DNA from: Bacillota bacterium
GTDB taxonomy: Bacteria > Bacillota > Dethiobacteria > Dethiobacterales > Dethiobacteraceae
Direction: 5' to 3'
Length of the DNA stretch: 34,130 bases
Assembly: GCA_012521405.1 (NCBI GenBank)
Contig: JAAYMK010000128.1
Span: 1 to 34,130, forward strand
Below are positions 1-23,803 of the stretch, piece by piece (positions within the stretch are counted from its first letter, which is position 1; each line of letters begins with the position of its first letter). The translations under genes and the position numbers were made by a program. The notes beneath the pieces are model-generated. The model had not been told where the DNA came from and did not search any database. It saw only the letters and a list, made by a program, of their open reading frames with translations.

Positions 1-12
1 TCGCAAGCTTTA

Positions 13-117
13 TGTCAACAACCACTTTCTGGTAAGCTCATTAAATTGTCTTGACTCTTTTGTTTGTTGCTGTGTCAACACGAGTCATATCGTACCATGA
101 ATTGAGGGTTTTGTCAA
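13..117 (-). promoter_or_regulatory. Minus-strand promoter facing the left edge, with repeated TGTTGACA boxes
   Basis: On the minus strand a TTGACA -35 (112-117) and a TACGAT -10 (89-94) are separated by exactly 17 bases, giving a predicted start near position 82 and transcription out of the window to the left. The octamer TGTTGACA occurs three times on this strand (complements at 112-119, 73-80 and 13-20). Only the first has a recognisable -10; the partner of the third would lie outside the window. Such dense consensus -35 elements are typical of highly expressed stable-RNA operons, but the transcribed gene is not visible, so that is inference. Confidence 0.6.
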
Positions 118-172
118 CATCTGAATTACATTGTTTTTTTTAGTTTTGGATGCTGTAGTTTGGGCAGTTTTC

Positions 173-823
173 CTATGTCTTACCGGAGAAATCCAGATTT
201 ATGACTGTATCCGGAACTTTGCCCGGGTAAATAGCGTCAACAATAGGTACGGTAGTAACAATCTCTGTCACATCAGACAAAAGAGGAATACCGATTCTGA
301 CCACTGCTTGAACCTGTAAATATATTTTGTGGCGCACCTGATTTATACCGGCATCTTCAAACTGATCAATAATCTCAGTATTAATATATCCTACCGGTGT
401 CAGGCGAACCGGTATTTTAGGGCCGGCATGTGCGAAAATATAGCTATCAAAAATTTGTCCCAGGGGAATTGCTAGCTTTTCTTTTTCTAATTGATTTAAT
501 GCTGCTTGTGCTTCCAAAGCTGTCTCTGCACAAATACTATTTACCTTTATATTGTTCACTTGTGCAAAAACAATTCTTCCTTCCTTATCCTTTGTAAGCT
601 GAATTAAATCCTGGTAATTTATTTGCTGCGCAACTTTCTCAAGGACGGCAGTATTAATGGCTTGAATGGCCAATGCCTCCGCTTTAACTTTGGCCAGTGC
701 CCACACGGTAGGGCGAATATTCTGCTCTAAAAAAAGCAAACTGCGCAAAAAAATAAAAATAAAGACCGACAAAACCAGGAAACTTTTTGCTTGTCGGCTC
801 AACTTAAAGCGCTGCGGCAACAA
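173..823 (-). CDS. yunB: Sporulation protein YunB family
   Basis: A 216-residue protein with one N-terminal membrane anchor (about residues 15-33) followed by a soluble domain that would face outside the cytoplasm or the intermembrane space of the forespore. Length, single anchor and the conserved C-terminal part (a PVRLTPVGYINTEI-like segment at about 137-150 and TVPIVDAIYPGKVP near 191-204) match YunB. In Bacillus subtilis YunB is a sigma-E-controlled sporulation protein of unknown biochemical role. Translation probably starts at a TTG codon: a GGGGAGTG ribosome-binding site lies 7 bases upstream, and the nearby ATG is out of frame. It is divergent from the downstream penicillin-binding protein gene and appears monocistronic. 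Family call from recognition of the sequence; function inferred. Confidence 0.8.
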   Translation of the reverse strand: MLPQRFKLSRQAKSFLVLSVFIFIFLRSLLFLEQNIRPTVWALAKVKAEALAIQAINTAVLEKVAQQINYQDLIQLTKDKEGRIVFAQVNNIKVNSICAETALEAQAALNQLEKEKLAIPLGQIFDSYIFAHAGPKIPVRLTPVGYINTEIIDQFEDAGINQVRHKIYLQVQAVVRIGIPLLSDVTEIVTTVPIVDAIYPGKVPDTVINLDFSGKT

Positions 824-6835: not shown

Positions 6836-6863
6836 TCTCTGCAATGAAAACACATCCCTGCTC

Positions 6864-8454: not shown

Positions 8455-8489
8455 AAGAAAAAACCGCCAACCTTCTGCATAGGCGGCGG
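8455..8489 (-). terminator. Terminator after cvpA
   Basis: On the minus strand a CCGCC/GGCGG stem (8482-8486 or 8485-8489 with 8464-8468) is followed by a run of Ts (8456-8463). It would end the pheS-pheT-zapA-cvpA transcript before polX. The stem is short (5 bp) with a 13-16 base loop, so efficiency may be partial. Confidence 0.55.
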
Positions 8490-8496
8490 CTAAAGT

Positions 8497-9048: not shown

Positions 9049-9308
9049 TTGGCATTCTTCTTTTTGAACAGGGATTCCAGTTCCCGCACCCGTTTTTGGG
9101 CGCGAAACAATTCATCGGCCAGATTTACTGCTGTTAAAATTGCCACTTTACTCGTGCCCAGCCTACTGTTTGCGGCGCCAATCTGCCGCATTTTTTCATC
9201 AACATATTGGGCCAAACGCTTTAAATAATCTGGCGCTGCCGTGCCGCACATGGTGTATTCTTCATGATAAATCTTTACGTTTACGCGATGCTTTTTTTCT
9301 TCAGCCAT
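9045..9308 (-). CDS. zapA: Cell division protein ZapA
   Basis: An 87-residue ZapA homologue: an N-terminal beta/alpha domain with HRVNVKIYHEEYTMCG, the YLKRLAQYVDEKMRQI helix, then a C-terminal coiled coil ending in RVRELESLFKKK. ZapA binds and bundles FtsZ filaments at the Z-ring in the cytoplasm. The length equals other Firmicute ZapA proteins (about 85). The ribosome-binding site GGGGGAGG is strong. The gene lies about 107 bases downstream of pheT with no terminator visible between them, so it is probably read from the pheST T-box promoter as in other Firmicutes. Confidence 0.9.
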   Translation of the reverse strand: MAEEKKHRVNVKIYHEEYTMCGTAAPDYLKRLAQYVDEKMRQIGAANSRLGTSKVAILTAVNLADELFRAQKRVRELESLFKKKNAK

Positions 9309-9415
9309 GCGGCTTCCTCCCCCGCCGTTTTCTCTTTCTTTTCTCCCTTGAGACGGTAAAATCCTGCTATAGCCCCTTTAAAGCAGTTTGTCTGGAGCTT
9401 TAAGCAGCCATGGGC

Positions 9416-11824
9416 TTAACTGCGCAGTTCCGCTCCCAGGCGTTCCCGTAAAGCCGCTTCTATTTTTTGATGCAAAGCAGCCACCACTTCATCACTTAGG
9501 GTGCGTTGTAAATCACGATAAGTTACGGCAAAGGCCAAACTGCGGCAGTTTTCCGGTATTTGTGGGCCCCTGTACTGGTCAAAAAGCGTTACCTTTTCTA
9601 CCAGCTTTCCTCCCACTTCAGAGATAACATCAATAACCTCCTTGGCCGTAACCGTGTCCGGAACCACCACCGCTAAATCTCTTAGTACAGCCGGGTAGCG
9701 CGGCAGCGGTACATACTTGGCTGTTAACCGCGCATGCTTTAGCAGCAGCTCTAAATTTAGCTCTGCAGCAAAAACCGGTTGTTCTAAATCATAATTGTCC
9801 AAGACATCAGGGTGAATACGACCCAGCCACCCCACTTGCTCTTGAGCGATAAACAGTGCTGCTGTCTGCCCGGGCTGGCACCAGGGAAGTTCACAGGCGG
9901 TAAATGTATACTCTGCAATTCCCAGGCGTTCTAGCAGTACTTCAACGATGCCTTTGACCTCAAAGAAATCTGTCGGTGATGGTTTTTGCTGCCAATGCTC
10001 TGCCGGAAAAGCCCCCATGAGTGTGATTCCTAACATGGTAGGCTCCTGGGGTAATTTGGCCAGAGGTTCTGCAGCAGGAATAAAGACGGAACCGATTTCA
10101 AATAATTTTAGATTACGCTCATTGCGGTTTTGATTATAAACCAAAACGTCAAGCAGGCCGCCTAGAAGCATTGTCCGCATCACACTCTGCTCTTCTGACA
10201 AGGGGTTGGCGATTTTTAAAACACGGCGCAAAGGACTGTCCATGGGCAAGCAAAGTTTATCAAATTGTTGCGGACTGATAAAGGAATAACAGATAGCTTC
10301 CGTCAACCCGCATGCTGTCAAAACTTCTTTTACTTTTCGCAAAGCACGCTGTTTTTCCGTAAGACTGCCCTGTGTGATGACACCCTTGGGCAAAGTTGTG
10401 TCAATTTTATCATAACCATAAATACGGGCAACTTCTTCTATAAGATCAACTTCTTCCTGCAAATCGGCACGCAAGGTAGGAACAGTAACATGTAACTGCG
10501 TCCCCTCTTCCACCTGAAAACCTAAACGTTTAAAAATATTGGCCATCTCCAGTTGCGAAATTTCCAGGCCTAATAACTTCCGGGCACGTTGCGGACGCAT
10601 ACTGATCCTTTTCGGATTACGCGGATTAATGTATGCATCAACAACTTCGCCGTCTACACTTCCCGCCCCTAAAATTTCCAGCAAGCGGGCTGCACGGCGA
10701 ATAGCTTCTGCACACCCGTTAATATCGACACCTTTTTCAAAACGCTGTTGTGCTTCCGAGTATAGGCCTAAAGCACGGCCGGTGCGCCGAATATTTACGG
10801 CAGTAAAATGTGCCGACTCCAAAAATACATTTCTTGTATTTTCTGTTACTTCCGTTTCCAAACCGCCCATCACGCCGGCCAATCCTACAGCCCGCTTGGT
10901 ATCGGCAATGACAAGCATCTCCGGAGTTAAGATCCTTTCTATATTATCTAAAGTTGTCAGTGTTTCGCCTTTGCGGGCCCGGCGGACAATAATGCTGTGA
11001 TCAGCGAGCGTATCATAATCAAAAGCATGTAATGGCTGACCGTATTCCCACATGACATAGTTTGTCACATCAACAATATTACTGATAGGCCTGATTCCGG
11101 CTTGCAACAAACGTACTTGTAACCAAATGGGGGATAGGTCTACTTGTACGTCCCTAATGACCAAGCCTACATAACGGCCGCATAAATCCTTTGCTTCGAT
11201 CTGTATGCTTGGCACAGGAAGTTGAGCTTTTGTTAGCTGCAAATTGTTATTGGGCAGTTGGACTTTTTTTCCGGTTAAAGCGGCCACTTCATAAGCAACA
11301 CCAATTAACCCCAGGCAATCTGCCCGGTTAGGAGTCAGATCTAAGACTAAAATAGGATCATTTAAAAGCAGTGCTTCTGCAAGGGGAACACCTACAGGCG
11401 TTTCACGGTCTAAAACTAAAACTCCATCGACACCGGGATTTAACGGCAGATCCAATTCCGCTGCCGAACAAAGCATTCCCATTGACTCAATGCCGCGCAG
11501 TTTTGCCTTTTTTATTTTTACACCACCGGGCAGGACAGCTCCGGGTTGTGCCAGCGGCACTTTATCTCCGGGGGCAAAATTATTAATCCCGGCCACCACA
11601 GTCTTTTCTTCACTGCCGTCATTGACCCGGACAACATACAGTTTATCAGCATCCGGATGCTTCTCTACCTTAAGTACCTCCGCCACAACAACTCCGCTAA
11701 AATTCGGTTGTAGGGATGTTATTTCGTCAACTTCTATCCCGGCATGAGTTAGCAAATCAGCCAGTTCCTGGGCAGGAAGCTCCAAATCAACAAAATCTTT
11801 TAGCCAAGTATAGGGAACACGCAT
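9416..11824 (-). CDS. pheT: Phenylalanyl-tRNA synthetase beta subunit
   Basis: A 802-residue PheT, the normal bacterial length. Domain order as expected: N-terminal segment MRVPYTWLKDFVDLELP, EMAP/OB tRNA-binding fold (about 40-150, with VVAEVLKVEKHPDADKLYV), B3/B4 editing domain that hydrolyses Tyr-tRNA(Phe) (about 215-385), B5 helix-turn-helix (about 405-475), a catalytic-like domain (about 485-690) and the C-terminal FDX-ACB anticodon-binding domain (about 708-802). It forms the alpha2-beta2 enzyme with PheS. The gene follows pheS by 23 bases with a strong GAGGAGG ribosome-binding site and shares its T-box-controlled transcript. Confidence 0.97.
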   Translation of the reverse strand: MRVPYTWLKDFVDLELPAQELADLLTHAGIEVDEITSLQPNFSGVVVAEVLKVEKHPDADKLYVVRVNDGSEEKTVVAGINNFAPGDKVPLAQPGAVLPGGVKIKKAKLRGIESMGMLCSAAELDLPLNPGVDGVLVLDRETPVGVPLAEALLLNDPILVLDLTPNRADCLGLIGVAYEVAALTGKKVQLPNNNLQLTKAQLPVPSIQIEAKDLCGRYVGLVIRDVQVDLSPIWLQVRLLQAGIRPISNIVDVTNYVMWEYGQPLHAFDYDTLADHSIIVRRARKGETLTTLDNIERILTPEMLVIADTKRAVGLAGVMGGLETEVTENTRNVFLESAHFTAVNIRRTGRALGLYSEAQQRFEKGVDINGCAEAIRRAARLLEILGAGSVDGEVVDAYINPRNPKRISMRPQRARKLLGLEISQLEMANIFKRLGFQVEEGTQLHVTVPTLRADLQEEVDLIEEVARIYGYDKIDTTLPKGVITQGSLTEKQRALRKVKEVLTACGLTEAICYSFISPQQFDKLCLPMDSPLRRVLKIANPLSEEQSVMRTMLLGGLLDVLVYNQNRNERNLKLFEIGSVFIPAAEPLAKLPQEPTMLGITLMGAFPAEHWQQKPSPTDFFEVKGIVEVLLERLGIAEYTFTACELPWCQPGQTAALFIAQEQVGWLGRIHPDVLDNYDLEQPVFAAELNLELLLKHARLTAKYVPLPRYPAVLRDLAVVVPDTVTAKEVIDVISEVGGKLVEKVTLFDQYRGPQIPENCRSLAFAVTYRDLQRTLSDEVVAALHQKIEAALRERLGAELRS

Positions 11825-11847
11825 AAAACAACCTCCTCAAACTGCAG

Positions 11848-12873
11848 CTAACGAAATTGACGCAGCATTCTGATATCGTTTTGGAAAAATAGGCGCAAAT
11901 CATTCACACCGTATTTGAGCATGGCAATACGTTCGATGCCCATGCCGAAAGCATAACCTGTATGTTCTTCCGGATCATAGCCGGACATAGCCAAAACTTT
12001 GGGATGGACCATACCTGAACCTAAAATTTCTATCCAACCTGTATGTTTGCAAACGCTGCAGCCACTGCCTTGGCAGATCACACAGGAAATATCTACTTCC
12101 GCACTAGGTTCAGTAAAAGGGAAAAAACTGGGGCGCAAACGCACCTGCTGCTTGGGGCCAAACATCTGCCGGGCAAAAGATAAAAGTGTACCTTTTAAAT
12201 CAGCCAGCGAAATATTATGATCTATGGCAAGCCCTTCAATTTGATGGAACATGGGCGAATGTGTGGCATCATCATCTCTGCGGTAAACTTTACCGGGAGC
12301 AATAATGCGCACAGGTACTTGAGGCGCAACTTTTTCCATGGTTCTGACCTGCATAGGAGAGGTATGTGTACGTAAAAGTATCTCCGGCTGAAAATAAAAA
12401 GAATCCTGCATATCTCTGGCCGGATGGTCCTTCGGGATATTTAGCGCCTCAAAATTATAATAATCCGTCTCCACTTCCGGGCCTTCGGCAATGGTAAAGC
12501 CCATTCCCAGAAAAATATCACAGATTTCTTCAATTACTTGCGTTAGAGGATGTAAAAAACCCTGCGCAAAGGGCCGTCCCGGCAGCGTAACATCCACCCG
12601 TTCTGCTTCCATTTGTTTCTGGCGCGCTTTGTGGCGCAATTTTTGTTCGCGTTCTTTGAGCAAAGTGGTTATTTCATCACGTATCTGGTTGGCCAGGCTG
12701 CCAATAATGGGTCTTTCTTCAGGAGAAAGTTTGCCCATACCGCGTAAAACTGCCGTGATCTCACCCTTCTTACCCAGGTAACGCACCTGTACTTTTTTTA
12801 GTTCTTCTTCCGTTTCTGCAGCATTAATTTCAGCACGCGCTTTTTCTGCGATTTCAGATAATTGTGCTTGCAT
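11848..12873 (-). CDS. pheS: Phenylalanyl-tRNA synthetase alpha subunit
   Basis: A 341-residue PheS, typical length. It has an N-terminal coiled coil (1-90) for tRNA binding and a class II catalytic core. Visible motifs: [20 protein letters not shown] (motif 1 region), [24 protein letters not shown] (motif 2), [10 protein letters not shown] and [12 protein letters not shown] (motif 3). The [17 protein letters not shown] cysteine cluster seen in many bacterial PheS is present. The enzyme charges tRNA(Phe) in the cytoplasm. Ribosome-binding site AAGGAGTG is well spaced from the ATG. First gene of the operon, controlled by an upstream T-box. Confidence 0.97.
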
Positions 12874-12902
12874 GAAATACCACTCCTTCCCGGAAAAACT
12901 AA

Positions 12903-13269
12903 TAAAAAAACGTCCCCACTAAGGGACGAAAGCTCTCTTCCGCGGTACCACCCAAATTAGCATACCTAAAATATACTCACTCACAGCTCTTTACCGGGAG
13001 CAACCGTCCGGACCTACACAGTTTTCCCTTCAGTCCGGCAGCATCAGGGAGGAACTTCAGTCAATTTGCGCTAGGCGCTCTCAGTCTAGGCGTCTTTCCC
13101 TGTAAACGCAAGTGTTGACCTACTCGTCCCTTCATCGCCTTAACATATTTGTGCTTCAAGAAGCTGTTTATAAAGCAAGTACGCTGTTATCGAACCAGTA
13201 CGTTCAAAAATATACCAAAATAATTTTGCGTCTATCACTATAACCACTCCTTATGCTGGGAATGGAACT
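12903..13269 (-). ncRNA. T-box leader (tRNA-Phe-sensing) of pheST
   Basis: The minus strand carries the T-box sequence GGTGGTACCGCGG (within 12940-12953) followed by a terminator hairpin CGTCCC/GGGACG (12911-12928) and a T-run (12904-12910). Upstream is a Stem I: AGGGACGAGTA (S-turn AGTA) pairs by AGGGA with TCCCT, and the opposing strand has GAAGTTCC. The TTC triplet at 13052-13054 is the likely specifier, a phenylalanine codon matching the downstream gene. Established mechanism: uncharged tRNA(Phe) pairs with specifier and T-box to favour the antiterminator. The leader is about 365 bases, of which the first 125 or so lie before the recognisable Stem I. Confidence 0.93.
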
Positions 13270-13275
13270 GTACTT

Positions 13276-13304
13276 ATTATAGCATATGGAGTGTAAGGAG
13301 ACAA
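13276..13304 (-). promoter_or_regulatory. Promoter of the pheS-pheT-zapA-cvpA operon
   Basis: TTGTCT (13299-13304) and a perfect TATAAT (13276-13281) are 17 bases apart on the minus strand; predicted start near 13269, just before the T-box leader. Confidence 0.8.
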
Positions 13305-13333
13305 GAAACTGCACGGAAAACGCGAAACTTGTT

Positions 13334-14119
13334 TTAGCCGTGTCTTTGCCGTGCAGCTTCAAAAAACAGCACGGACATGGCTATGGCCGCATTTAAAGAT
13401 TCCACGGTGCCAGACATGGGAATGGTAACGGCTGCATCGGCGGCTGCTTCAATCTCCGCCGCAATACCGCTGCCTTCATTGCCCACAACCACTGCTAGGG
13501 GGCGTGTCCAGTCAAAACGATGGTAAACGCAAGCATCACTGTTTGTTGTCGTTGTTACCAATAAAATTTGCTGCCTTTGCAAAGCTTGCTGTAATCTGGG
13601 GAAATCTGTTTCCACCACCGGCAAGGTAAAATATGCCCCCATGGATGCCCTTAATGCCTTTGGATTCGTAGGGTCTACCGTTTGCGGGAGGATAACAGCC
13701 CCGCTTGCCCCGGCGGCAGCGGCAGAACGCAGCATGGTGCCCAGATTACCCGGATCCTGCACCCGGTCAACCACAAGAATAAGAGCAGGTTTTTGACCAA
13801 AAAGCTCTTCTAAAACCACTTCCGGTTTTTTTACCACAGCCAAAATGCCTTGGGGTGATTCGGTAAAGGCAGCCTGGTCAAAAATGCTGCTTTCAACCCT
13901 GAAAATTTTTGTTTGTGCCGGTAAAGCATGTAGAAATGCCGGTTGTTCCACATTTTCACGCAAAAAAATGATTTCCGGGACTACTCCCCGCTGTAGCACG
14001 TCTGCAACCAGCCGCATGCCTTCCAACGGGATAAGACCAAGCTTTTTTCTAAATTTGCGTTTTTCCAAACATCGATACAGCTTCACATGCTGATTCTGCA
14101 GGCTTGTAATGATGGTCAT
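13334..14119 (-). CDS. TrmH/SpoU-family RNA 2'-O-ribose methyltransferase
   Basis: A 261-residue SPOUT methyltransferase that would transfer a methyl group from S-adenosylmethionine to a ribose 2'-OH in rRNA or tRNA. The N-terminal substrate-binding domain starts MTIITSLQNQHVKLYRCLEK. The knotted SPOUT motifs are present: LVVDRVQDPGNLGTMLRSAAA (motif 1), VVVGNEGSGI (motif 2) and IPMSGTVESLNAAIAMSVLF (motif 3). The open frame begins at 14158, but GGGAGGTG is ideally placed before the ATG at 14119, so that start is used. It lies between the L20 operon and pheS, as in other Firmicutes (YsgA-like). The exact RNA target cannot be told from sequence. Confidence 0.88.
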   Translation of the reverse strand: MTIITSLQNQHVKLYRCLEKRKFRKKLGLIPLEGMRLVADVLQRGVVPEIIFLRENVEQPAFLHALPAQTKIFRVESSIFDQAAFTESPQGILAVVKKPEVVLEELFGQKPALILVVDRVQDPGNLGTMLRSAAAAGASGAVILPQTVDPTNPKALRASMGAYFTLPVVETDFPRLQQALQRQQILLVTTTTNSDACVYHRFDWTRPLAVVVGNEGSGIAAEIEAAADAAVTIPMSGTVESLNAAIAMSVLFFEAARQRHG

Positions 14120-14214
14120 ACACCTCCCAGGTGACCTACGGTCCTGACCACCCCGCAAACTTAAGGGACTCCCCCTTAACCAATTATGTTAAGCTTAAGC
14201 TCATTTCCTAGCAC

Positions 14215-14250
14215 ATAAAAAGACGAAGTCAGAAGTTATGCTTCTGACTT
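14215..14250 (-). terminator. Terminator of the infC-rpmI-rplT operon
   Basis: A 10-bp perfect stem (AAGTCAGAAG 14226-14235 with 14241-14250, 5-base loop) is followed on the minus strand by TCGTCTTTTTAT, directly downstream of rplT. A further small inverted repeat TTAAGGG/CCCTTAA lies at about 14161-14179 before the methyltransferase gene. Confidence 0.85.
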
Positions 14251-14261
14251 GGCTGGAAAGT

Positions 14262-14615
14262 TTATAAATTTTCTTTGGCGATATTTACCAATTCTGTGAA
14301 ACCGGCTGCATCATTTACTGCCAAATCGGCCAACATTTTGCGGTTAATATCAATACCGGCCCGTTTTAAACCGTTAATAAAACGACTGTACGAGAGACCA
14401 TTCATTCTGGCAGCCGCATTAATACGTGCAATCCATAATTTGCGGAAATCACGTTTGCGCAGACGGCGATCACGATAAGCATTGGCAAGTGACTTCATGA
14501 CAGCTTGATTGGCGACGCGGAACAATTTACTTTTGGCGCCAAAGTAACCCTTTGCCAATTTAATTATTTTTTTATGTCGTCTACGCGTGACAACGCCACG
14601 TTTAACCCTAGGCAT
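14262..14615 (-). CDS. rplT: 50S ribosomal protein L20
   Basis: A 117-residue basic protein with the L20 hallmarks: [24 protein letters not shown] at the N-terminus, [21 protein letters not shown] and the C-terminal [14 protein letters not shown]. It binds 23S rRNA early in large-subunit assembly. In Firmicutes L20 also represses its own operon by binding the mRNA leader. Last gene of infC-rpmI-rplT, with ribosome-binding site AAGGAGGG. Confidence 0.98.
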
Positions 14616-14650
14616 GACAAAACCCTCCTTGCTTCAATAAGTATAACAAT

Positions 14651-14845
14651 TTAATAGGGGAGCATTTTCGCAACGCGTTTCGTTTCTGCAACACTTACAG
14701 CGGTGTTTTTGCGCAGACGCCGTTTACGTTTAGGGCTTTTCTTCTCTAAAATATGGCTTTTATAAGCATGGCTGCGCTTAAATTTGCCACTGCCTGTCTT
14801 TCTAAAGCGTTTGGCAGCTCCACGATGTGTTTTCATTTTAGGCAT
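14651..14845 (-). CDS. rpmI: 50S ribosomal protein L35
   Basis: A 64-residue, very basic protein starting [21 protein letters not shown] and continuing with [17 protein letters not shown], the full L35 signature and length. A small 50S subunit protein. It lies between infC and rplT with a strong AGGAGGG ribosome-binding site. Confidence 0.98.
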
Positions 14846-14871
14846 GACTATATATACCCTCCTAAACTAAA

Positions 14872-15384
14872 CTAGCTGGATTTCGGTGCCAGAATCATTA
14901 CCATATTACGTCCTTCAACCTTCGGCACGCGTTCCACGCTGCCCAAATCTTTTACATCCTCGGCAATTCGCATGAGCAATTTTTGTCCTAATTCCGGATG
15001 TGTAATTTCACGGCCGCGGAACATAATGGTTGCTTTAACCTTATCGCCGCTTTGTAAAAACCGCCGCGTATTTTTAAGTTTGACATTATAATCATGTTCT
15101 TCAATGTTAGGACGAATTTTAATCTCTTTGATGGTGATTTGTTTTTGATTCCTACGTGCCTCTTTTTCCCGCTTACTTTGCTCAAACTTATATTTACCGT
15201 AATCCATAATACGGCAGACAGGCGGTTTAGAGTGTAAAGAAACAGCAACCAAATCCAGATCATAATCTGCGGCAACCTGTAAAGCCTCATCTAAAGACAT
15301 AATCCCCAGCTGTTTACCATCCGGGTCAATTACCCGCACCTCCTTGGCACGGATTTGTTCATTGACAAGCAGATCCTTGCTAAT
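14872..15384 (-). CDS. infC: Translation initiation factor IF-3 (ATT start codon)
   Basis: IF-3 keeps ribosomal subunits apart and checks start-codon and initiator-tRNA pairing on the 30S. A conventional start search gives a GTG at 15339 and a 155-residue product lacking the family's N-terminus. Reading upstream in frame adds SKDLLVNEQIRAKEV, which matches the conserved start of IF-3, back to an ATT codon at 15382-15384. That ATT is preceded by AGGAGG with a 9-base gap, and the next in-frame codon but one upstream is a stop. The full protein is then 170 residues, the standard length. AUU starts on infC are established in E. coli, where they allow IF-3 to repress its own synthesis. N-domain about 1-80, linker with KREKEARRNQKQ, C-domain about 90-170. 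Confidence 0.95.
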   Translation of the reverse strand: MSKDLLVNEQIRAKEVRVIDPDGKQLGIMSLDEALQVAADYDLDLVAVSLHSKPPVCRIMDYGKYKFEQSKREKEARRNQKQITIKEIKIRPNIEEHDYNVKLKNTRRFLQSGDKVKATIMFRGREITHPELGQKLLMRIAEDVKDLGSVERVPKVEGRNMVMILAPKSS

Positions 15385-15565
15385 AAGTTATCACCTCCTG
15401 AGAAATCTATGGGTAAATAAGGAAAAAGCAGGTGGCTCCACCTGCTTTCACACACACTATTGAGCACAAATGCATACATCAAGTATACCTGCGTGCATAA
15501 CCCTGGCGGCTTAAGCCTTGGGGTGAGAAGCGGTGGCTTCTTCTTGGCAACATTAATAAAAGTGC
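15385..15565 (-). promoter_or_regulatory. infC-rpmI-rplT leader with attenuator hairpin (L20-leader type)
   Basis: The 180-base untranslated leader contains a perfect 11-bp inverted repeat (15425-15435 with 15438-15448) followed on the minus strand by TTTTT, a Rho-independent terminator ahead of the infC ribosome-binding site. Upstream lie further paired elements, including GGCTTAAGCC (15508-15517). Leaders of this operon in low-GC Firmicutes are bound by L20, which promotes termination (established for B. subtilis). Position and architecture fit; the specific L20 site was not verified. Confidence 0.75.
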
Positions 15566-15571
15566 GTTTTA

Positions 15572-15600
15572 ACTATACCACAGACAAATGACAAAGTCAA
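15572..15600 (-). promoter_or_regulatory. Promoter of the infC operon
   Basis: TTGACT (15595-15600) and TATAGT (15572-15577) with a 17-base spacer on the minus strand; predicted start near 15565. Confidence 0.8.
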
Positions 15601-15640
15601 CGTAATTCAGCAAAAAATTCGCCTGTTTTACAGCCTTAAT

Positions 15641-16390
15641 TTAGCTTTTGGGGAAGCTTACCCTTTCTCCGGCGGCGAAAATAGAACTTAATATGCCTCG
15701 TTTCACTATGGTTGCACATAAATGCGGGTCGTGAACCACAAAGCCACAGATGACATCAACCCCGAACTTAAACAAGACCTCAGACAAAGGAGCTACAGGA
15801 CCCACTAAAATTACCCGGGCATTTGCCGCTAAAGTAAGCAGCCGTGGCAGTGTTTTATAAATTAATGTTTCGCCGGTGATAAAAACATAGTCTTGTGCGG
15901 GCAAAAGATATTCGCAGGCAGCTTCAGGATAGTCTCCCGGCTGCGGATTTCTCTCCAGGATAGATAAGTCACTGCTTGCGCCAAGGGCCTGTACTACCGG
16001 CGGGAAATGACCTACAGAAGCAACTTTTTTTCCTTTTACCTCTTCTTTAAAAACGGTAAAAGCCTCACTATCCGCCTGCTGCCAGTGGTTGTGGGCAATA
16101 CCAAGTTTTATGGTCCGGGAGGCAGCGTTGTAATATGCATTAATGGCCGCCACCCCAATACTTGCCTCCAGCAGATTCCACGATTTAGCCGCCTCCGCCA
16201 CCTCTCTTAACGGCATGCCTTTAATGTGGTTGCCCAGCATAGGCTTCCGTGTAGCTTCCTTTACCGTTGTGGCCAAACCGATTCCGCCTGTTTCCGTCTG
16301 GATCATGGTCCAACTATTTCCGCACAAAAAATCTGCCACTTTTAATTCTTTAGGTATGGCACCAATTAAACTGTCGTATAACTTCCACAT
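15641..16390 (-). CDS. DUF364/DUF4213 domain protein (putative heavy-metal or cofactor-related)
   Basis: A 249-residue cytoplasmic protein. The N-terminal half (about 1-90) resembles DUF4213 with CGNSWTMIQTETGGIGLATT and GMPLREVAEAAKSWNLLEASIGVAAINAYYN. The C-terminal half resembles DUF364, with KKVASVGHFPPVV, ERNPQPGDYPEAACEYLLPAQDYVFITGETLIYKTLPRLL and a VGPVAPLSEVLFKFGVDVICGFVV segment in a Rossmann-like fold. The family is often described as putative heavy-metal chelation and is frequently found near molybdenum or nitrogenase-type genes; the activity is unproven. Here it lies immediately downstream of a molybdenum-hydroxylase operon, separated by a hairpin, with its own ribosome-binding site (GGGGGG). 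It may handle molybdate, its cofactor or a substrate (inference). Confidence 0.75.
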   Translation of the reverse strand: MWKLYDSLIGAIPKELKVADFLCGNSWTMIQTETGGIGLATTVKEATRKPMLGNHIKGMPLREVAEAAKSWNLLEASIGVAAINAYYNAASRTIKLGIAHNHWQQADSEAFTVFKEEVKGKKVASVGHFPPVVQALGASSDLSILERNPQPGDYPEAACEYLLPAQDYVFITGETLIYKTLPRLLTLAANARVILVGPVAPLSEVLFKFGVDVICGFVVHDPHLCATIVKRGILSSIFAAGERVSFPKS

Positions 16391-16440
16391 AATTTTCCCC
16401 CCGCTGTTTTATGTCGCCGGCATAATTTACCGTTTGTGGG

Positions 16441-16475
16441 AAAATCCCCGGCCTGCAAGCCAGACCGGGGATTTT
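16441..16475 (-). terminator. Terminator-like hairpin after the molybdenum-hydroxylase operon
   Basis: An 11-bp inverted repeat AAAATCCCCGG/CCGGGGATTTT (16441-16451 with 16465-16475) follows the FAD subunit gene. The minus-strand T tract is short (TTTT), so some read-through into the DUF364 gene is possible. Confidence 0.7.
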
Positions 16476-16484
16476 TCAGTCTCT

Positions 16485-18830
16485 CTATTGCTTTAGTGTG
16501 GCTAAAAGTGCACGTTTGACTAAGACTTTAGCAATTTGCACTTTATAAGTGGCATCTGCCACAGGTTGAGCATCCTCCACCGCAGCTTCTCCGGCAGCGG
16601 CTGCAAGCTCCTCGTTGAGCTCTTTGCCGGCAATGACTTTTTCCGCTTTAACGGCCCTATAGGGCACCGGAGCAACTGCATTAAGACAAATGCGCGGGTT
16701 GTCACCGCCTACCAAGACGGCACAGTTAAGAACAGGGAAATCAATAGATTTGCGCAGGGCAAACTTCATAAATAAGCTTTTTGTTCCCGCCGGTGGTGTA
16801 GGAATCTGAATCTCCGTAATAATCTCGTCTTTGTCCAGTACAGTACTGCCGGGAACTTTCACGGCAAAAAACTTTTCCGCAGGAATTGTGCGCTTGGTAG
16901 TAACAATTTTTGCATCAAGAGCGATCAGGGCCGGGGCAGTATCGGAAGCATTTACCGTGAAACAACTGCAATTCCGACAACGTTTTGCTTCATTAACGGC
17001 CTCTTCAGTGGTAGGTGTGGCAGCATCTTCCTTGTTTAAGGACCGCTCTTCCCGGGGAATTTCCCTTTGTTTTAGCGCCTCTTTCCGGTCAAACCCTTCG
17101 GGGTCAAAGGTGCGGAAACAAGTGCCGGCAGTTTCTTTTTTCTCCGCGACCACACCCAGATAACGGTTCATACCGTTGGCGGCTTTATGCCCGTTAGCAA
17201 TGGCGGCAATAACGGTAGCCGGACCGGTAGTAACATCACCGCTGGCAAAAACTCCTTCCCTGGAAGTCATTTGTGTCTCTTCGGCCACATCAATCAGGCC
17301 GCGGCGGTTTAACTGCATCTGGAATTTTTCACTTAAGAAGGAAAGGTCAACCCTCTGTCCTACAGCCATTAAAATATTTTCCGCATCGACAACAATTTTT
17401 TCATTTTCATCATACTGCGGGTTAAAGGCACCGTTCTCATCCCAGGGACTAATGCATCTTTTCAGCTCCATACCTTTGACGACACCGTTTTCCTCAACAA
17501 CTCTAGACAAGCCCCAGGAATTCATAATGATAATGCCTTCTTCTTCGGCTCTGGCCACTTCATCTTTACTGGCCGGCATCCTGTCTCTCGGTTCCAAACA
17601 AGCTAAAGTAACCTTTTTTGCCCCCAGGCGTTTAGCAGTAATAGCTACGTCCATGGCCACGTTACCGCCACCGGCTACAAATACTTCCGCGCCGATTTTA
17701 CCTTCCATCCATTTGTTAACCTCAACTAAAAAGTCAAGGCCAAAGACCGTCAACTCTTCACCGGCGATACCAATGACAGGACGTTTCCAAGTACCGGTGC
17801 TAAAGCAAATACTGTCGTATTGCTTCTCCAGGTCTTCCGGCATAACATCTTCGCCCACTTTGGTGTTAAGCACAAATTTAATGCCCATGTTTTCCAGAGC
17901 TTTAGTAAATTTGCGCACAATATCTTTGGGTAGCCGGTAAGCAGGAATGGCATACATCAGCATACCGCCGGCCTCTTCCTTGCTGTCATAAACAGTTACT
18001 TTATGTCCTGCTTTACGTAAATAATAAGCAGCAGAAAGGCCTGCAGGCCCTGAGCCAATCACCGCCACTGACTTTCCTGTTTCCTCCTTGGGCGGAGCAT
18101 AAAACTTGTGGCTGTTTTCCAAGATATAGTCACCTAATGTACGTTCAACGGCACGAACGGAAACGCTTTCGTCTTCATAGGCACGGTTGCAACCTGTCTG
18201 GCAAAAATGGGCACAGACGCGGCCGGTAATGGCCGGCATGGGGTTTACTTGCATAAGAATGTGTGCTGCTTCATCCCAATTTCCGTCCCGTAACTGGGCC
18301 ATATAGGCCGGGATATCTGTTTTGGCAGGACATTCCATGGTACATGGTCTTGTTTCTGTTTCCATCCCACCGAATATGGAATGATAGCGGTTTTCGCCTG
18401 TAGCGGCAAAACAAGTATGTCCGCCCTTGCGAATACAGTGGAAACGGTTTTCCGGTTTACGGAAATACCAGCAGCGATTAAACTGGGCAATATTGCCGGC
18501 AATGGTTCCCATATTACGGATGTTAGGTGCAGCTGCATGGGCGGCAGCTTGCGCCAAAGCGGAATATTTCTCTTTAATCACCGGGCTTTCTGCTATATCG
18601 GCCAGACGGGTTACCGCCCCGATTTTTAGCATGCCATCTTCTTCTTTAATATAATCAAGCCCGGGAATAGTTTTAATGTTGACGACCGTCTTGGGATAAT
18701 CCGGAAGAATGTTATCCTTTAATGTGGTTATAAGATCTGTGCCGCCGGCATTAAGCAAAGTACTGCCTTTGTTGAGAACGTCAGCGGCTTCTTCCAATGA
18801 CTTAGCATTAATATGGTTAAATGGTCTCAT
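16485..18830 (-). CDS. Molybdenum-hydroxylase FAD subunit with a nested GltD-like NAD(P)H oxidoreductase module
   Basis: A 781-residue chimera. Residues 1-154 are the first part of a XDH-type FAD-binding domain (NAGGTDLI at 27-34, NIRNMGTIAGNIAQ at 103-116) running into a cysteine segment (Cys120, Cys132, Cys140). At about 155 a glutamate-synthase-small-subunit-like module begins: CxxxC (163, 167), CxxxCxxxC (206, 210, 214), FAD site VIGSGPAGLSAAYYL (257-271), NAD(P) site VAGGGNVAMD (385-394) and GDVTTGP (531-537), ending in RCRNC (617-621). At about 622 the XDH FAD domain resumes (CFTVNASDTAPALIALDA) and ends with the CO-dehydrogenase flavoprotein C-terminal domain (about 650-781). Cys623 sits where insertion-free relatives carry the fourth cysteine of a 4Fe-4S site like that of 4-hydroxybenzoyl-CoA reductase beta, so the host domain probably still closes over the insert. 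The protein likely holds two FADs and several Fe-S clusters and links the molybdenum enzyme to NAD(P)(H) (inference). Last gene of a three-gene operon, 10 bases after the large subunit. Confidence 0.9.
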   Translation of the reverse strand: MRPFNHINAKSLEEAADVLNKGSTLLNAGGTDLITTLKDNILPDYPKTVVNIKTIPGLDYIKEEDGMLKIGAVTRLADIAESPVIKEKYSALAQAAAHAAAPNIRNMGTIAGNIAQFNRCWYFRKPENRFHCIRKGGHTCFAATGENRYHSIFGGMETETRPCTMECPAKTDIPAYMAQLRDGNWDEAAHILMQVNPMPAITGRVCAHFCQTGCNRAYEDESVSVRAVERTLGDYILENSHKFYAPPKEETGKSVAVIGSGPAGLSAAYYLRKAGHKVTVYDSKEEAGGMLMYAIPAYRLPKDIVRKFTKALENMGIKFVLNTKVGEDVMPEDLEKQYDSICFSTGTWKRPVIGIAGEELTVFGLDFLVEVNKWMEGKIGAEVFVAGGGNVAMDVAITAKRLGAKKVTLACLEPRDRMPASKDEVARAEEEGIIIMNSWGLSRVVEENGVVKGMELKRCISPWDENGAFNPQYDENEKIVVDAENILMAVGQRVDLSFLSEKFQMQLNRRGLIDVAEETQMTSREGVFASGDVTTGPATVIAAIANGHKAANGMNRYLGVVAEKKETAGTCFRTFDPEGFDRKEALKQREIPREERSLNKEDAATPTTEEAVNEAKRCRNCSCFTVNASDTAPALIALDAKIVTTKRTIPAEKFFAVKVPGSTVLDKDEIITEIQIPTPPAGTKSLFMKFALRKSIDFPVLNCAVLVGGDNPRICLNAVAPVPYRAVKAEKVIAGKELNEELAAAAGEAAVEDAQPVADATYKVQIAKVLVKRALLATLKQ

Positions 18831-18840: not shown

Positions 18841-21195
18841 CTATGCCTTGCCCAGCGCCTTTAGGACCTTATCCGGAGTTGCCGGCGGGTCCACCCAGAC
18901 GCCGATCGCGTTATGGATAGCGATAATCACAAGATGTGTATTGGCCAGTGAATGGCTAATGCCACTTGCTCCATAAGCTGCGTTGCCTGCGCGTGTTTCC
19001 AAGAATTTGCGCTCCACATGAGGAACATCCAAGACACCGGGTTTTTTATAATCAATCATATTGGTATGCAATTTAACTCCGGTTTTTTTATCATAGACAA
19101 AATCTTCCAGCAATTGGCATCCCTGGCTGAAATACATTACTTGGTCTATCTGGCTTTCTAATGAGGTGAGGCGCATAATTTTACCCGGATCTGCCACCAC
19201 CCCAAAGCGCAGGATTTCAACCTCGCCTGTTTCTGTATCTACAGCCACTTCACAGAATGCTGTATTCATGGTATCAAGCATTCTCCCCATACCTAAACTC
19301 CAGAGCGCATCCGGCGGCCTGCCGGAATAAGTAGCAAAAATATTTTTTGTCACGGCTTCGGCAAGGGGAACGCCGATACTCGGATCAGATTTAAGGACAA
19401 CCTTACCATCCATTAGATCTAAATCTTCGGGTTTTAAATTCATGCCTTTAAAAGGACTGGGTGGTTTTGGCATGGCAAACATCCCTGTAGGGCGCGGCGG
19501 ATTTTCGGCTTCTTCAATGGCTGCCTCCAAAAGGCGTTGTTTAAGGATATGGGCGCATTCCTTCATGGCCCAAGCCGAAGCGGTGGTACCGTCCGAGCCA
19601 CCACCCACAGGGGTAAATTTTTCTCTGTAATCAAAATCAATGCTGATATCTTCATATTCCAAACCCAATTCTTCAGCCACAACCATGGCGTTAACTTCAA
19701 CGGCATACATTCCTGTTACGGGGCCCTGTGTCGGCAGGTGTACCACGCCGTTCTGATACTCCAGTTTACAGTCATATCCGGAGAATGCGTGACGTGGGCA
19801 GATCTGATACCTGAAACTGGCACCATGCATCCTGCCGTCAGGCAGCCTTTTGGTACCGGCAGGATGCCAGTTCCAATTCATTAATTTCTTTCCTTCCTCG
19901 AGGCAGGCTTCAAAGCTAGGTACCGGATTAGGATCATCTTGTGATGTGGGACCGTGCAAATTAATCTTGGCAATTTCAATGGGGTCTTTCCCTAACTTTT
20001 CCGCAATGAGATAAATGGCCATGGTCCCGGCATCCCAGTTAAAAGGACAATGTTGTCCGCTCACGTACATCTTACCGCGGTTGCTGTCAACAATCTCCAT
20101 TCTCTGTCTAATATTTTTGCACCTGAAAGTGTAATAAGGACCGTAACTTTGGTCACCGCTTGTACCGAAGGTGGAACTGCCCGGCACGCCACCGTCAGCA
20201 ATGGAATAATCGTCAATGGCGGTAATTAAGCCGTTATCCTTAAAGCCGACTTTTAAGTACATATAACGCTGCTTCATGAGAAAGTCGTATGTTTGCTCCC
20301 GTGTATTTACACAGCGTACCGGCCTTCCGGTTCGTTTGGCCAAAAGAGGTGTAATTTCTTGGGATCTACGCATTCCCCAATCACAATATTTACCGCCTTG
20401 GAAAAGTCCTTTTTGCACAGTCTTTTCTAAGGGAAGGCCGTACATGGCAGCAATCTGCTCTCTTCTTTGCACGGCGCCTTCAATGCGCAATGTTTTCCCC
20501 GGAGCATGGTAAGGATCATCTTCCCACCAAGCCACTGAACCGGGAGGGTTAGGCATATGGGAAGCAAAAGCAGGTATGGTTAAGTTAAACTCAATAATAT
20601 GGTCAGCTTCTTTAAAGCCGGCTTCAATATCACCGTCAATCACATAAGAATAAGAGACATTACCTTTTTTGGGAGGATTATCTTTACCTCCCATACCAAA
20701 CATGGATGGTATTTCAGGGAGACCTTCGCGGATTACAGGCGCATCCGGCTTTCTGCCTTCAAGGATATCCACAATATGGGGCAGTATTTCCCATTCAACT
20801 TCGAGCAACCGCAAAGCTTCATCGCAAATTTCTTCGCTCTCAGCCACAACAATTACTGCTACCTCTGCCCCTTCCTCATGGGCTATATTATCAAGCCAAG
20901 GTTTAGGGGGCCCGAATCCACCGGTACTTAATTTGATAAGATCTTCATCTTCCCAGGTCAAGATATCCACCACGCCCGGCAATGCCCAGGCTTTTGTTGT
21001 CTCTACACTGACAACTTTGGCGTGGGCATAAGGGCTGCGTAAAAATTTGGCATGCAGCATATTGGGAAGCACATAGTCTATACCAAATTTGGCAATCCCT
21101 GTTGCCAACGCATATGAAAGCCTGCCGGGAAGGTTGGGCTTACCGACAACACGAAAATGCTCCCTCTGCCCATTAACACCTGCCAGATCCGCCAT
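18841..21195 (-). CDS. Molybdopterin-binding large subunit, xanthine dehydrogenase family (divergent active site)
   Basis: A 784-residue homologue of XdhA/aldehyde-oxidoreductase large subunits, with the a/b-hammerhead domain at about 25-140 and molybdopterin-binding domains after it. The Mo-pocket loop reads GLFQGGK (263-269), equivalent to the family's GGFGGK. Two normally conserved features are altered. The HxPxEP-type motif is HMPNPPG (213-219). The C-terminal GxGE that supplies the catalytic glutamate reads YGASGISH (741-748), placing His748 where Glu is expected. The substrate is therefore not predictable, and hydroxylation by the usual Glu-assisted route is doubtful (inference). The first 2Fe-2S subunit gene ends one base before it and the FAD subunit follows, giving the order FeS-Mo-FAD. 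No signal peptide: cytoplasmic. Confidence 0.9.
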   Translation of the reverse strand: MADLAGVNGQREHFRVVGKPNLPGRLSYALATGIAKFGIDYVLPNMLHAKFLRSPYAHAKVVSVETTKAWALPGVVDILTWEDEDLIKLSTGGFGPPKPWLDNIAHEEGAEVAVIVVAESEEICDEALRLLEVEWEILPHIVDILEGRKPDAPVIREGLPEIPSMFGMGGKDNPPKKGNVSYSYVIDGDIEAGFKEADHIIEFNLTIPAFASHMPNPPGSVAWWEDDPYHAPGKTLRIEGAVQRREQIAAMYGLPLEKTVQKGLFQGGKYCDWGMRRSQEITPLLAKRTGRPVRCVNTREQTYDFLMKQRYMYLKVGFKDNGLITAIDDYSIADGGVPGSSTFGTSGDQSYGPYYTFRCKNIRQRMEIVDSNRGKMYVSGQHCPFNWDAGTMAIYLIAEKLGKDPIEIAKINLHGPTSQDDPNPVPSFEACLEEGKKLMNWNWHPAGTKRLPDGRMHGASFRYQICPRHAFSGYDCKLEYQNGVVHLPTQGPVTGMYAVEVNAMVVAEELGLEYEDISIDFDYREKFTPVGGGSDGTTASAWAMKECAHILKQRLLEAAIEEAENPPRPTGMFAMPKPPSPFKGMNLKPEDLDLMDGKVVLKSDPSIGVPLAEAVTKNIFATYSGRPPDALWSLGMGRMLDTMNTAFCEVAVDTETGEVEILRFGVVADPGKIMRLTSLESQIDQVMYFSQGCQLLEDFVYDKKTGVKLHTNMIDYKKPGVLDVPHVERKFLETRAGNAAYGASGISHSLANTHLVIIAIHNAIGVWVDPPATPDKVLKALGKA

Positions 21196-21196
21196 T

Positions 21197-21871
21197 CTAT
21201 TCGCCCCCTTCGGCCATTTTCATCGTTGCCTCCAGGATTGCTTGTGAATGGCGAGGATATGTTCCGCAGATGCAAATATTACCTGCTAGAGCTTCCCTAC
21301 ATTCTTCTTCAGTGGGATTGGGGTTTCTGTCTAAAAGTGCCTTGGCAGTCACCAAAAAGCCTGGTGTACAGTAACCGCATTGCATTGCATCCCACCTGCA
21401 GTAGGCGTCAATGAGAGGCTTCCACTTGGGATCAGCAGCAATACCTTCTACCGTTTCTATACGTTTGCCTTCACATTCTGCAGCCAGTGTGATGCAAGAG
21501 AGAACAGGACGTCCGTCAATGATGACGGTACAAGAACCACAGGCTCCATGGTCGCACATTTGCTTTGCCCCCGTCAGCCCCAGCTGAAACTGGAGGGTAC
21601 GCTGTAGAGTCCAATGGGGCTCAATGAGAACTTCACAATCTTTGCCGTTGACATTAAGCTTAACTACAATTGGGACAACAGAATCTGGGTGTTCATTTGC
21701 ATAGTGAAATTTTAAATCTTCATGGTTGACGCTAATTTTGCCGCAAATAGGACAACGATACTGTGCCGGTGTGGCAGGTAATGATGCCACTTTTTCGGCA
21801 GAGATGGCCTGAGCGGCTTCATGGTTTAGCACCATACTTCCTCCTTGTTTCATTTGCTCTCCCCTAGACAT
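21197..21871 (-). CDS. 2Fe-2S subunit of the molybdenum hydroxylase with N-terminal zinc-finger-like extension
   Basis: A 224-residue electron-transfer subunit. Residues 67-224 are a standard small subunit: plant-type 2Fe-2S with Cys106, Cys111, Cys114 and Cys126 (CDHGACGSC), then the helical 2Fe-2S domain with CGYC (165-168) and CIC (200-202). Residues 1-65 are extra: CPICGKISVNHEDLKFHYANEH forms a C-x2-C-x12-H-x4-H pattern (Cys40, Cys43, His56, His61), the spacing of a C2H2 zinc finger. Typical bacterial homologues are about 155-165 residues and lack this. It passes electrons between molybdopterin and FAD subunits. Ribosome-binding site AAGGAGGT (21878-21885). First gene of the operon. Confidence 0.92.
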   Translation of the reverse strand: MSRGEQMKQGGSMVLNHEAAQAISAEKVASLPATPAQYRCPICGKISVNHEDLKFHYANEHPDSVVPIVVKLNVNGKDCEVLIEPHWTLQRTLQFQLGLTGAKQMCDHGACGSCTVIIDGRPVLSCITLAAECEGKRIETVEGIAADPKWKPLIDAYCRWDAMQCGYCTPGFLVTAKALLDRNPNPTEEECREALAGNICICGTYPRHSQAILEATMKMAEGGE

Positions 21872-22097: not shown

Positions 22098-22697
22098 TTA
22101 TGTTAAGCAGTATTTCCGCACAGCAAAACTTTTTCCCTTTTGCCTAATTACATAAATTTCCGCATAATTTTGTCTAAGCGTGAAAAGTTTTGCCAAATCC
22201 AGCCGCTGTAAATGACAGAGAATCACTCTATTTACCCCGGCATGAGCAATAATGGCCAAATTACCGTCAATTGTTTCCAGCAGCTTCTCAAAAGCGGGAA
22301 TGACTCGTTTTTGCAGATCAGCAAAGCTTTCTCCCTGGGGAGGACGGAAATTAACAATATCTTGGCCACGTGCAACATACAAGGCGGGATATTTTGTTTT
22401 TATCTCCACACGCGGCCGGCCGTCCCACAAACCAAGATTAATTTCCCGCAATTCCGGTACACAAACGGGATTTAAACCATGCTGGCGGGCGATGATTTCT
22501 GCCGTTTGCCTGGTGCGTAAAAGGTCACTGCAAAAGACTGCTTCCAAATTACGTTTTTTCAAGAGCATGGCAAGTTTAGTTGCTTGCCTAAGACCTCTTT
22601 GGCTGAGCGGCAAATCCAACTGACCAAGATAAATTTTTTCCTTGCTGATTTGCACGGGTTCCGCATGTCTGATTAGATAGATTTTTCTTGCTTTCAT
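22098..22697 (-). CDS. Histidine phosphatase family protein
   Basis: A 199-residue member of the histidine phosphatase (phosphoglycerate mutase-like) superfamily. The phosphohistidine motif is LIRHAEP (Arg10-His11). It continues with GQLDLPLSQRGLRQA, FCSDLLRTRQTAEII, LREINLGLWDGR and IIAHAGVNRVIL carrying the second catalytic His. These resemble alpha-ribazole phosphatase (CobC)-type enzymes, but no cobalamin genes are nearby. Its start codon overlaps the stop of the MobA-HD gene by 4 bases, so the two are coupled. In this setting it may dephosphorylate a pterin or nucleotide intermediate of molybdenum cofactor maturation (inference). Confidence 0.85.
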   Translation of the reverse strand: MKARKIYLIRHAEPVQISKEKIYLGQLDLPLSQRGLRQATKLAMLLKKRNLEAVFCSDLLRTRQTAEIIARQHGLNPVCVPELREINLGLWDGRPRVEIKTKYPALYVARGQDIVNFRPPQGESFADLQKRVIPAFEKLLETIDGNLAIIAHAGVNRVILCHLQRLDLAKLFTLRQNYAEIYVIRQKGKSFAVRKYCLT

Positions 22698-23803
22698 TTG
22701 CTTTCGCCTGCTATCTCCAAGATGGGCTTACCGATAACCTGTTCTATTTTTTGTTGCCAAAAAAGTGCTTTTTGCAAACGTGATTCTACAGCTTGTTGTG
22801 CGGCGGCATTACCGGCAAAAAATGCATGTTTCTTTCTTTTTTTCTGCGCTAAAGAGACTATTTCCGTTCCTTCAACCATTTTATCCGCCAAAAACAAGAG
22901 CACTGCTTCATCAAGTTCTTCATGCGCGGCAGGCAAATTCATATGGGTCGCCACCAGGGACGCCACTTCTTTATATCCCAGGTTAGCCAAAAGCTGCCCG
23001 CCCTTTTCTGCATGGTTTTTCTGCCCTTTAGCAATATCATGCAGCAGACAGGCCGCTTGCAGTAAAGCCAAATGCAGGCGATAACCGCAACTGTTAAGAT
23101 AAAGGGCCATCATCTGGGCCAATTTATTTACCTGCTCCATATGCAAAATAACCTGTGGCAAAACATTATGTGCCGCTAAAATTTGCTCACACTCACTTCT
23201 GGTAGGATAACCGGCGGCAGCAGGCGGAAGCATCCTGCGGTAATGCTCTTCTCTATCTAAATCTTTTAAAACCCCCTCATCATCAACATGAAGCAATTTC
23301 TTGTTTTTTGCTTTGTTTAAAATAGTTTTCAGACCGCCTAGAGGCTCTGGCTGCAAAATTTCCGCACGCAATTGTGTGGCAATTAGCGGCGGGTGTCCCT
23401 TGCGGTTGTCGTGGACGGGAAAGATTACCTCGGCAGGGCTTTGTACATACATGTCCATTAATTTTTTAATGGTTTCGGCTTGCACCAGGGGGATATCAGC
23501 CGGCAGCATGAAAAAAGCTTTTATCTCCCGGGGCAAATTTTTTACCCCGGCTTGTACCGATGAATACATCCCTTGTGCAAAATTGATATTTTCAATCCAT
23601 TGGGCACCCATTCTTTCTACTACCGGTTTAAGCAAATGGGCATTATGGCCGACAACCACGTAAACATTTTTAATTCCGGCAGTTAAAAATGTAGAAAGGG
23701 ATTTTTCGAGCACTAAAGCATTACCTAATGGTAAAAGTGGCTTATAAAGCCCCATCCTTGAGGAAAAGCCTGCTGCAAGTATAATGGCTGCAAAATTGTC
23801 CAT
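22694..23803 (-). CDS. MobA/MocA-like nucleotidyltransferase fused to an HD domain
   Basis: A 369-residue two-domain protein. Residues 1-190 are a MobA-like nucleotidyltransferase: ILAAGFSSRMG (8-18) for the nucleotide phosphates, Lys21, LPADIP (100-105) with the metal-binding Asp, and KGHPPL (135-140). Relatives attach CMP or GMP to molybdopterin; XDH-family enzymes use the cytosine dinucleotide form, made by MocA. Residues 200-369 are an HD domain with His221, His255-Asp256, His287 and Asp307, the metal set of an HD phosphohydrolase. This fusion resembles the NTP transferase class typified by Desulfovibrio DVU_1551, found with molybdenum hydroxylases. Coupled to the histidine phosphatase gene and upstream of the xdh-like operon, so a role in its cofactor is likely. 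Ribosome-binding site GAGGAGG. Confidence 0.88.
   Translation of the reverse strand: MDNFAAIILAAGFSSRMGLYKPLLPLGNALVLEKSLSTFLTAGIKNVYVVVGHNAHLLKPVVERMGAQWIENINFAQGMYSSVQAGVKNLPREIKAFFMLPADIPLVQAETIKKLMDMYVQSPAEVIFPVHDNRKGHPPLIATQLRAEILQPEPLGGLKTILNKAKNKKLLHVDDEGVLKDLDREEHYRRMLPPAAAGYPTRSECEQILAAHNVLPQVILHMEQVNKLAQMMALYLNSCGYRLHLALLQAACLLHDIAKGQKNHAEKGGQLLANLGYKEVASLVATHMNLPAAHEELDEAVLLFLADKMVEGTEIVSLAQKKRKKHAFFAGNAAAQQAVESRLQKALFWQQKIEQVIGKPILEIAGESK

Follow-up and report, generated by a model that had tools for sequence, protein, structure and literature searches.

A circularly permuted GltD/NfnB-like module nested in the [4Fe-4S] loop of an XO-family FAD subunit as a probable NAD(H)-linked electron module

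The window analyzed here, a 34,130-nucleotide stretch of DNA from a Bacillota bacterium, encodes an XDH-type FAD subunit that raises the question of how a second, apparently complete flavoenzyme can be accommodated within its chain and what it would do there. The first-pass annotation had read the FAD domain as broken at about residue 155 and resumed at about 622, with a complete GltD/NfnB-like module in between. Our analysis supports this architecture and indicates that the nested subunit probably connects XO-family catalytic subunits to NAD(H) as an electron module, a permuted GltD/NfnB-like module being placed in the host [4Fe-4S] loop.

The subunit comprises 781 aa in a single open frame (16485–18830, minus strand), devoid of stops or frame changes (Table 1). 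The Pfam profile FAD_binding_5 (PF00941) is split into residues 4–116 (profile 3–113) and a second piece at window 16797–16952 (profile 116–169), confirming the interruption. Between the two pieces lie Fer4_20 (E 1.6e-19) and Pyr_redox_2, constituting the proposed module, and CO_deh_flav_C follows the insert at residues 689–777. An end-to-end fusion was rejected, as the host profile resumes after the insert. The boundaries could be refined to residues 156–622 (467 aa) because the insert-free close relatives L039 and L040 show the junction, with ...GENRYHSIFG-NVK-DCLAVNPSD in these two and ...GENRYHSIFGG-[insert]-CFTVNASD in the window. The draft assembly behind the window has 165 contigs, which could speak for an assembly or frameshift artefact; yet identical junctions recur in many independent assemblies, one of them of an isolate, leaving a negligible chance for this explanation.

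Table 1 Features of the nested subunit and its operon neighbours, with positions in the window.
Feature	Residues and characteristics	Position	Strand	Basis
DUF4213/DUF364 protein	downstream, possibly co-transcribed; adjacent in near relative L018, weak match at L082 locus	15641..16390	-	
Host C-terminal part	623–781; C623, FAD-domain end, CO_deh_flav_C	16485..16964	-	Pfam, alignment
Insert	156–622; permuted GltD/NfnB-like module, predicted NAD(H)/FAD/2x[4Fe-4S]	16965..18365	-	Pfam; PDB matches 9bov_A, 9n5u_A, 8oh5_C, 4ylf_B; VIA Z 25.3 to 9bov_A
Permuted arm	575–621, ending RC618-x-x-C621	16968..17108	-	Fer4_20 profile 7–29 match, E 0.018; arm HMM
Two-Rossmann FAD/NAD(P)-binding part	254–547	17190..18071	-	Pfam Pyr_redox_2, E 6e-34
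Nucleotide discriminator	A-C-L-E (410–413) replacing NfnB YRR	17592..17603	-	alignment of 19 nested sequences
Fer4_20 part of insert	159–239; C163, C214 distal; C167, C206, C210, E229 proximal	18114..18356	-	Pfam, alignments, PMC7596348 numbering
Host N-terminal part	1–155; AGGTD and GTIAGN..Q motifs; C120, C132, C140	18366..18830	-	Pfam 4–116, alignment to 5y6q_B/1rm6_B
Large molybdenum-type subunit	784 aa, type A; H748 at catalytic-Glu place	18841..21195	-	Pfam, alignment, model
2x[2Fe-2S] subunit	all eight cysteines; N-terminal C2H2-finger-like extension C40, C43, H56, H61	21197..21871	-	
C2H2-like knuckle of [2Fe-2S] subunit		21689..21754	-	17/17 type A rows aligned, 0/6 other rows
MocA-like molybdenum cofactor cytidylyltransferase-HD fusion (DVU_1551 family)	possible cofactor maturation gene	22694..23803	-	

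Scores of 123.4 bits for PF00941 and 50.2 bits for PF03450 (gathering cut-offs 27 and 25.5) place the host among the XDH/MOP-type FAD subunits. The cysteines C120, C132, C140 and C623 align with the four cysteines of the [4Fe-4S] loop of 5y6q_B, and the host part was also aligned to 1rm6_B. By these alignments the host is a [4Fe-4S]-bearing XDH-type FAD subunit of the HcrB/PaoB type; its score for TIGR03195 (4-hydroxybenzoyl-CoA reductase beta, 4-HBCR) was 118 bits against a cut-off of 404.55.

The insert has the constituents of a GltD-like module, namely two [4Fe-4S] ligand sets including a glutamate together with FAD and NAD(P) Rossmann folds. In canonical GltD/NfnB proteins an N-terminal arm ending in RCxxC stands a few residues before the PCxxGCP motif, whereas the insert starts at RPCTMECP without such an arm and carries a similar one at its C-terminal end (RC618RNC621). 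The order of the profile matches follows this arrangement, residues 159–239 corresponding to Fer4_20 positions 28–111 and the C-terminal piece to positions 7–29. Furthermore, an HMM built from the 19 arms matched the N-terminal RCxxC in 10/10 canonical proteins with 9.7–21.1 bits, while 1000 shuffled N-termini reached at most 5.7. As the N-terminal-type CxxC arm sits at the C-terminus by both profile order and arm HMM, we count circular permutation of the GltD module in the insert as shown at the sequence level. The C-terminal RCxxC form is common to the insert, StnC-like, YgfK-like and related proteins.

This permutation also accounts for the complete ligand inventory. For T. maritima NfnB, PMC7596348 gives C39, C42, C47 and C100 as distal and C51, C90, C96 and E117 as proximal ligands, and the insert maps onto these one-to-one with C618, C621, C163 and C214 (distal) and C167, C206, C210 and E229 (proximal). 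A missing ligand set was hence rejected, since the permuted arm supplies C618 and C621; the earlier conjecture that RCRNC completes a cluster of the insert, which lacks the first CxxC, is borne out and explained by the circular permutation. C621 and C623 are ligands of successive clusters with one residue between them. None of the 19 nested sequences, which go down to about 50% identity, departs at the 12 cluster cysteines, at E229, R299 and E413 or in the two Rossmann motifs, and conservation of the insert equals or exceeds that of the host, corroborating the retention of both units claimed previously.

The AlphaFold model of the nested subunit is of low confidence (pLDDT 67.6, pTM 0.44), also around the clusters, with both folds recovered in VIA comparisons. 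The model matched 5y6q_B with a Z of 30.7 over 306 residues spanning 1..781, 4-HBCR beta (1rm6_B) with 28.8 and 5g5g_B with 28.3, and its insert matched 9bov_A with a Z of 25.3 over 369 residues (159..563; rmsd 6.4).

With respect to the nucleotide, PMC7596348 reports that Y310-R311-R312 of NfnB bind the NADP phosphate and that DsrL proteins lacking YRR have a kinetically measured preference for NAD(H). The nested sequences carry CLE at this place in 18 cases and SLE in one, E413 being present in 19/19. NADH is predicted for the insert because YRR is replaced by CLE, and its nucleotide would hence be NAD(H) in place of the NADPH suggested in the first-pass annotation. Likewise, the insert falls outside the NADPH-dependent glutamate synthase small subunits, scoring 276.7 bits for TIGR01316 (cut-off 471.75) and 241.3 for TIGR01318 (482.95), in addition to its permuted arm and CLE motif.

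These assignments suggest a continuous wire from NAD(H) through FAD, three [4Fe-4S] clusters, a second FAD and two [2Fe-2S] clusters to an active site. NADH would give its hydride to the insert FAD (or NAD+ take it there), from where electrons would pass to the proximal and then the distal insert cluster, on to the host [4Fe-4S] cluster and the host FAD, and finally via the small subunit's two [2Fe-2S] clusters to the large-subunit active site. The permutation brings both ends of the module to one cluster, so that the module fits in the loop. We propose this path because of the ligand assignments and the known roles of GltD-like modules, which, according to PMC8097209, pass NAD(P)H electrons via low-potential [4Fe-4S] clusters to a second domain.

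A scan of genome contigs returned 25 loci, and 19 complete nested sequences from 17 genomes, including later additions, were aligned, all with the insert at the identical place. The hosts comprise Clostridia and other Bacillota MAGs, a Spirochaetes MAG, a Synergistaceae MAG and the isolate Acetobacterium tundrae DSM 9173 (L029). The distribution is patchy: within the phylum of the window at least 3 of 398 sampled genomes contain the nested form, and within another order at least 1 of 295, which is the centre itself; both are lower bounds, as the top two to three candidates per genome were scored. The L080 locus (1592–18370, plus strand) holds within 17 kb three pairs of large and small molybdoenzyme subunits and two nested FAD subunits, one of them cut by the contig end.

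The insert accompanies two catalytic-subunit types that are about 25–29% identical, type A (window) and type B (L029, L031, L079, L080), and insert-free FAD subunits adjoin both types. L078 encodes one beside large (58%) and FeS (63%) subunits of type A, its genome containing a nested copy as well, and L146, L147 and L150 have insert-free FAD subunits with type B-like large subunits. Thus, of the two concerns attached to the original reading, an artefact did not stand up, and an insert-free close homologue in a matching operon does exist; L078 therefore indicates that the insert is removable and not an artefact. Since an un-nested subunit here partners a type A catalytic subunit, NADH input via the insert is not obligatory. 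L078 keeps a longer loop at the insertion site, FGGTTFETSPGVNRIC, which could be a scar of insert loss. The same locus adjoins an OYE-type reductase, and neighbours of the un-nested L146 and L147 resemble CoA ligases by length and opening residues only.

Phylogenetically, the inserts form one clade (support 100/100), whereas the host tree rejects a single clade of nested copies (p-AU 0.0013; 0.0005 without L078), so that a single insertion in a common host ancestor followed by plain descent was rejected. The insert/host divergence ratios were 0.72–1.44 within type A and 0.44–0.69 for L029/L031 against type A. Because of the single insert clade, the conflicting host tree and the low L029/L031 ratios, we prefer exchange of the insert between hosts, for which recombination at the same site would be the simplest reading, losses alone being the alternative. 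The behavior of the insert, present with both catalytic-subunit types and missing from some copies, is that of a cassette.

The large subunit of the window belongs to the XO family by its MoCoBD_1/2 and Ald_Xan_dh_C domains, and its model matched the CO dehydrogenase large chain 1n61_B with a VIA Z of 35.0. It departs from the canonical molybdenum hydroxylase site, however, as H748 (window 18952–18954) replaces the XO-family catalytic glutamate, a histidine conserved across the type A clade: GxGE reads GISH or GIAH in 25/25 type A rows examined. In addition, RG(F/Y/A)G of the molybdenum pocket is (S/T/C)GQ in type A and the GQG-like motif is also altered, while type B large subunits keep the catalytic glutamate. 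With this Glu-to-His exchange, type A may perhaps not perform ordinary hydroxylase chemistry. Type A large subunits often occur as solitary additional genes, no FeS or FAD gene accompanying them in 15–20 kb stretches at L116 (the window's genome), L117 and L119, and in shorter or contig-edge stretches at L118, L121 and L122. At L121 (136–6033, plus strand) the large subunit has as neighbours a glycyl radical enzyme and its radical-SAM activase. In the window's genome (G000), two type A large subunits face one FAD_binding_5 gene; the second large subunit (L116:9321–11717, minus strand; G000:C81) shares 81% identity, and the surrounding 17.8 kb contain neither an FeS nor a FAD gene. One electron module might hence be shared by several catalytic subunits. 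More tentatively, and on balance doubtful to us, type A could represent a new kind of XO-fold enzyme, marked by the Glu-to-His exchange, lost pocket motifs and a finger-bearing [2Fe-2S] subunit, with several lone catalytic subunits per genome drawing on one NADH-driven nested hub for reductions unlike molybdenum hydroxylation, possibly with an altered cofactor. Host genomes encode MoaC in 11/12 and MoeA in 9/12 cases, so that cofactor synthesis is likely in the hosts, which is no proof that type A binds the cofactor. No MoeA match was found in the nested-operon genomes G486, G490 and G491, nor MoaC in G490, perhaps reflecting assembly incompleteness.

Many XO-family enzymes are dehydrogenases, and the same wiring could run oxidatively, the catalytic subunit oxidizing a substrate and electrons leaving through the insert to NAD+. 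DsrL-1-type GltD-like proteins do work towards NAD+ (PMC7596348), adding to the case for this direction. We nevertheless consider it unlikely, as a [4Fe-4S]-bearing host of this kind is familiar from 4-HBCR, whose electron flow is inverted (a reference given in PMC12771579), type A lacks the hydroxylation glutamate, and the neighbours of nested type B genes fit a reductive handling of aromatics; these encode B12-binding proteins and URO-D proteins along with regulators of the PucR and LysR kinds (L029) and transporters of the MFS kind (L079, L080). By analogy with 4-HBCR the direction would be reductive. PMC12771579 describes a gut Enterocloster XO-family dehydroxylase taking NADH and 4-HBCR taking ferredoxin, and for type B an NADH-driven reduction, as for the urolithin C dehydroxylase Ucdh, is our best guess.

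Electron bifurcation, in which an NfnB-like insert FAD would send one share of the NADH electrons to a low-potential carrier, for instance ferredoxin, and the other into the FAD/molybdenum branch of the host, draws on the homology to NfnB, on the invariant R299 as counterpart of the NfnB arginine contacting N5, and on E229 as the retained NfnB-type glutamate ligand of the proximal cluster. NfnB bifurcation requires a second acceptor branch (NfnA-like [2Fe-2S]/FAD) beside the bifurcating FAD, yet no NfnA-like gene was found in the operon, and the cluster sets appear to lie on one linear path. R299 does not discriminate either, because StnC keeps this arginine though its flavin does not bifurcate (PMC10482914). 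We thus judge bifurcation improbable, and the link to ferredoxin or a bifurcating flavin raised by the first-pass annotation found no supporting evidence. Still less credible, and in our view very improbable, is a structural or degenerate insert with electrons entering at the host [4Fe-4S] cluster from ferredoxin: un-nested relatives do manage without the insert, but the invariance of its cofactor ligands and both dinucleotide motifs in 19/19 sequences and its conservation at or above host level argue for a working module.

Compared with known systems, HcrB (1rm6_B; TIGR03195) and the FAD subunits of [4Fe-4S] aldehyde oxidases (PaoB, 5g5g_B; 5y6q_B) share the FAD fold (Z 28–31) and the loop cysteines of the host, but have no GltD insert. 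The best PDB matches of the insert, StnC and the NfnABC large subunit (8oh5_C, 9bov_A, 9n5u_A), contain a permuted GltD-like module with a C-terminal RCxxCxC; there, however, it is joined end to end with NuoG/FdhF-like domains and not nested in an XDH FAD subunit, and the Stn-like proteins examined carry the NADPH-type YRR in place of CLE/SLE. NfnB, GltD and the DPD N-terminal module (4ylf_B, 2vdc_G, 1h7x_A) have the same fold, NfnB also the same eight cluster ligands, but their CxxC arm is N-terminal, NfnB has the NADPH-type YRR, and they occur as separate chains or end-to-end fusions. The nearest non-nested relatives of the insert, with weak tree support, are GltD-like proteins of 902–913 aa with a ferredoxin-like tail and a CLE/SLE motif (L011, L152–L154; YgfK/PRK12771-like), which are separate chains with matches below the NCBIfam cut-offs. 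Ucdh of Enterocloster, a gut Clostridium relative, is comparable as a reductive XO-family enzyme with NADH as donor (PMC12771579). A full-text literature search found no description of the nested arrangement in the titles, abstracts and passages covered.

The nested subunit would represent a new combination of known modules, a complete, presumably NADH-oxidizing enzyme inside the Fe-S loop of an XO-type flavin subunit. It appears as a natural plug-in, with a permuted NADH module in a cluster loop and host and guest clusters having adjacent ligands. If true, anaerobes would supply NADH to 4-HBCR-like molybdoenzymes and swap this supply between catalytic subunits, which would suggest a donor for some reductive XO-family enzymes in gut and sludge bacteria and offer a design rule for wiring redox enzymes. 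The analysis also exposes a clade of catalytic subunits with a non-canonical active site, the partner in the window's genome being very unusual.

A different association of an insert-free XDH-type FAD subunit was seen in the Spirochaetes MAG G482 (L077:1785–5540, minus strand), where its immediate neighbours are a molybdenum subunit of the DMSO reductase family and a 4Fe-4S ferredoxin-like subunit, an unusual mix of two molybdoenzyme families.
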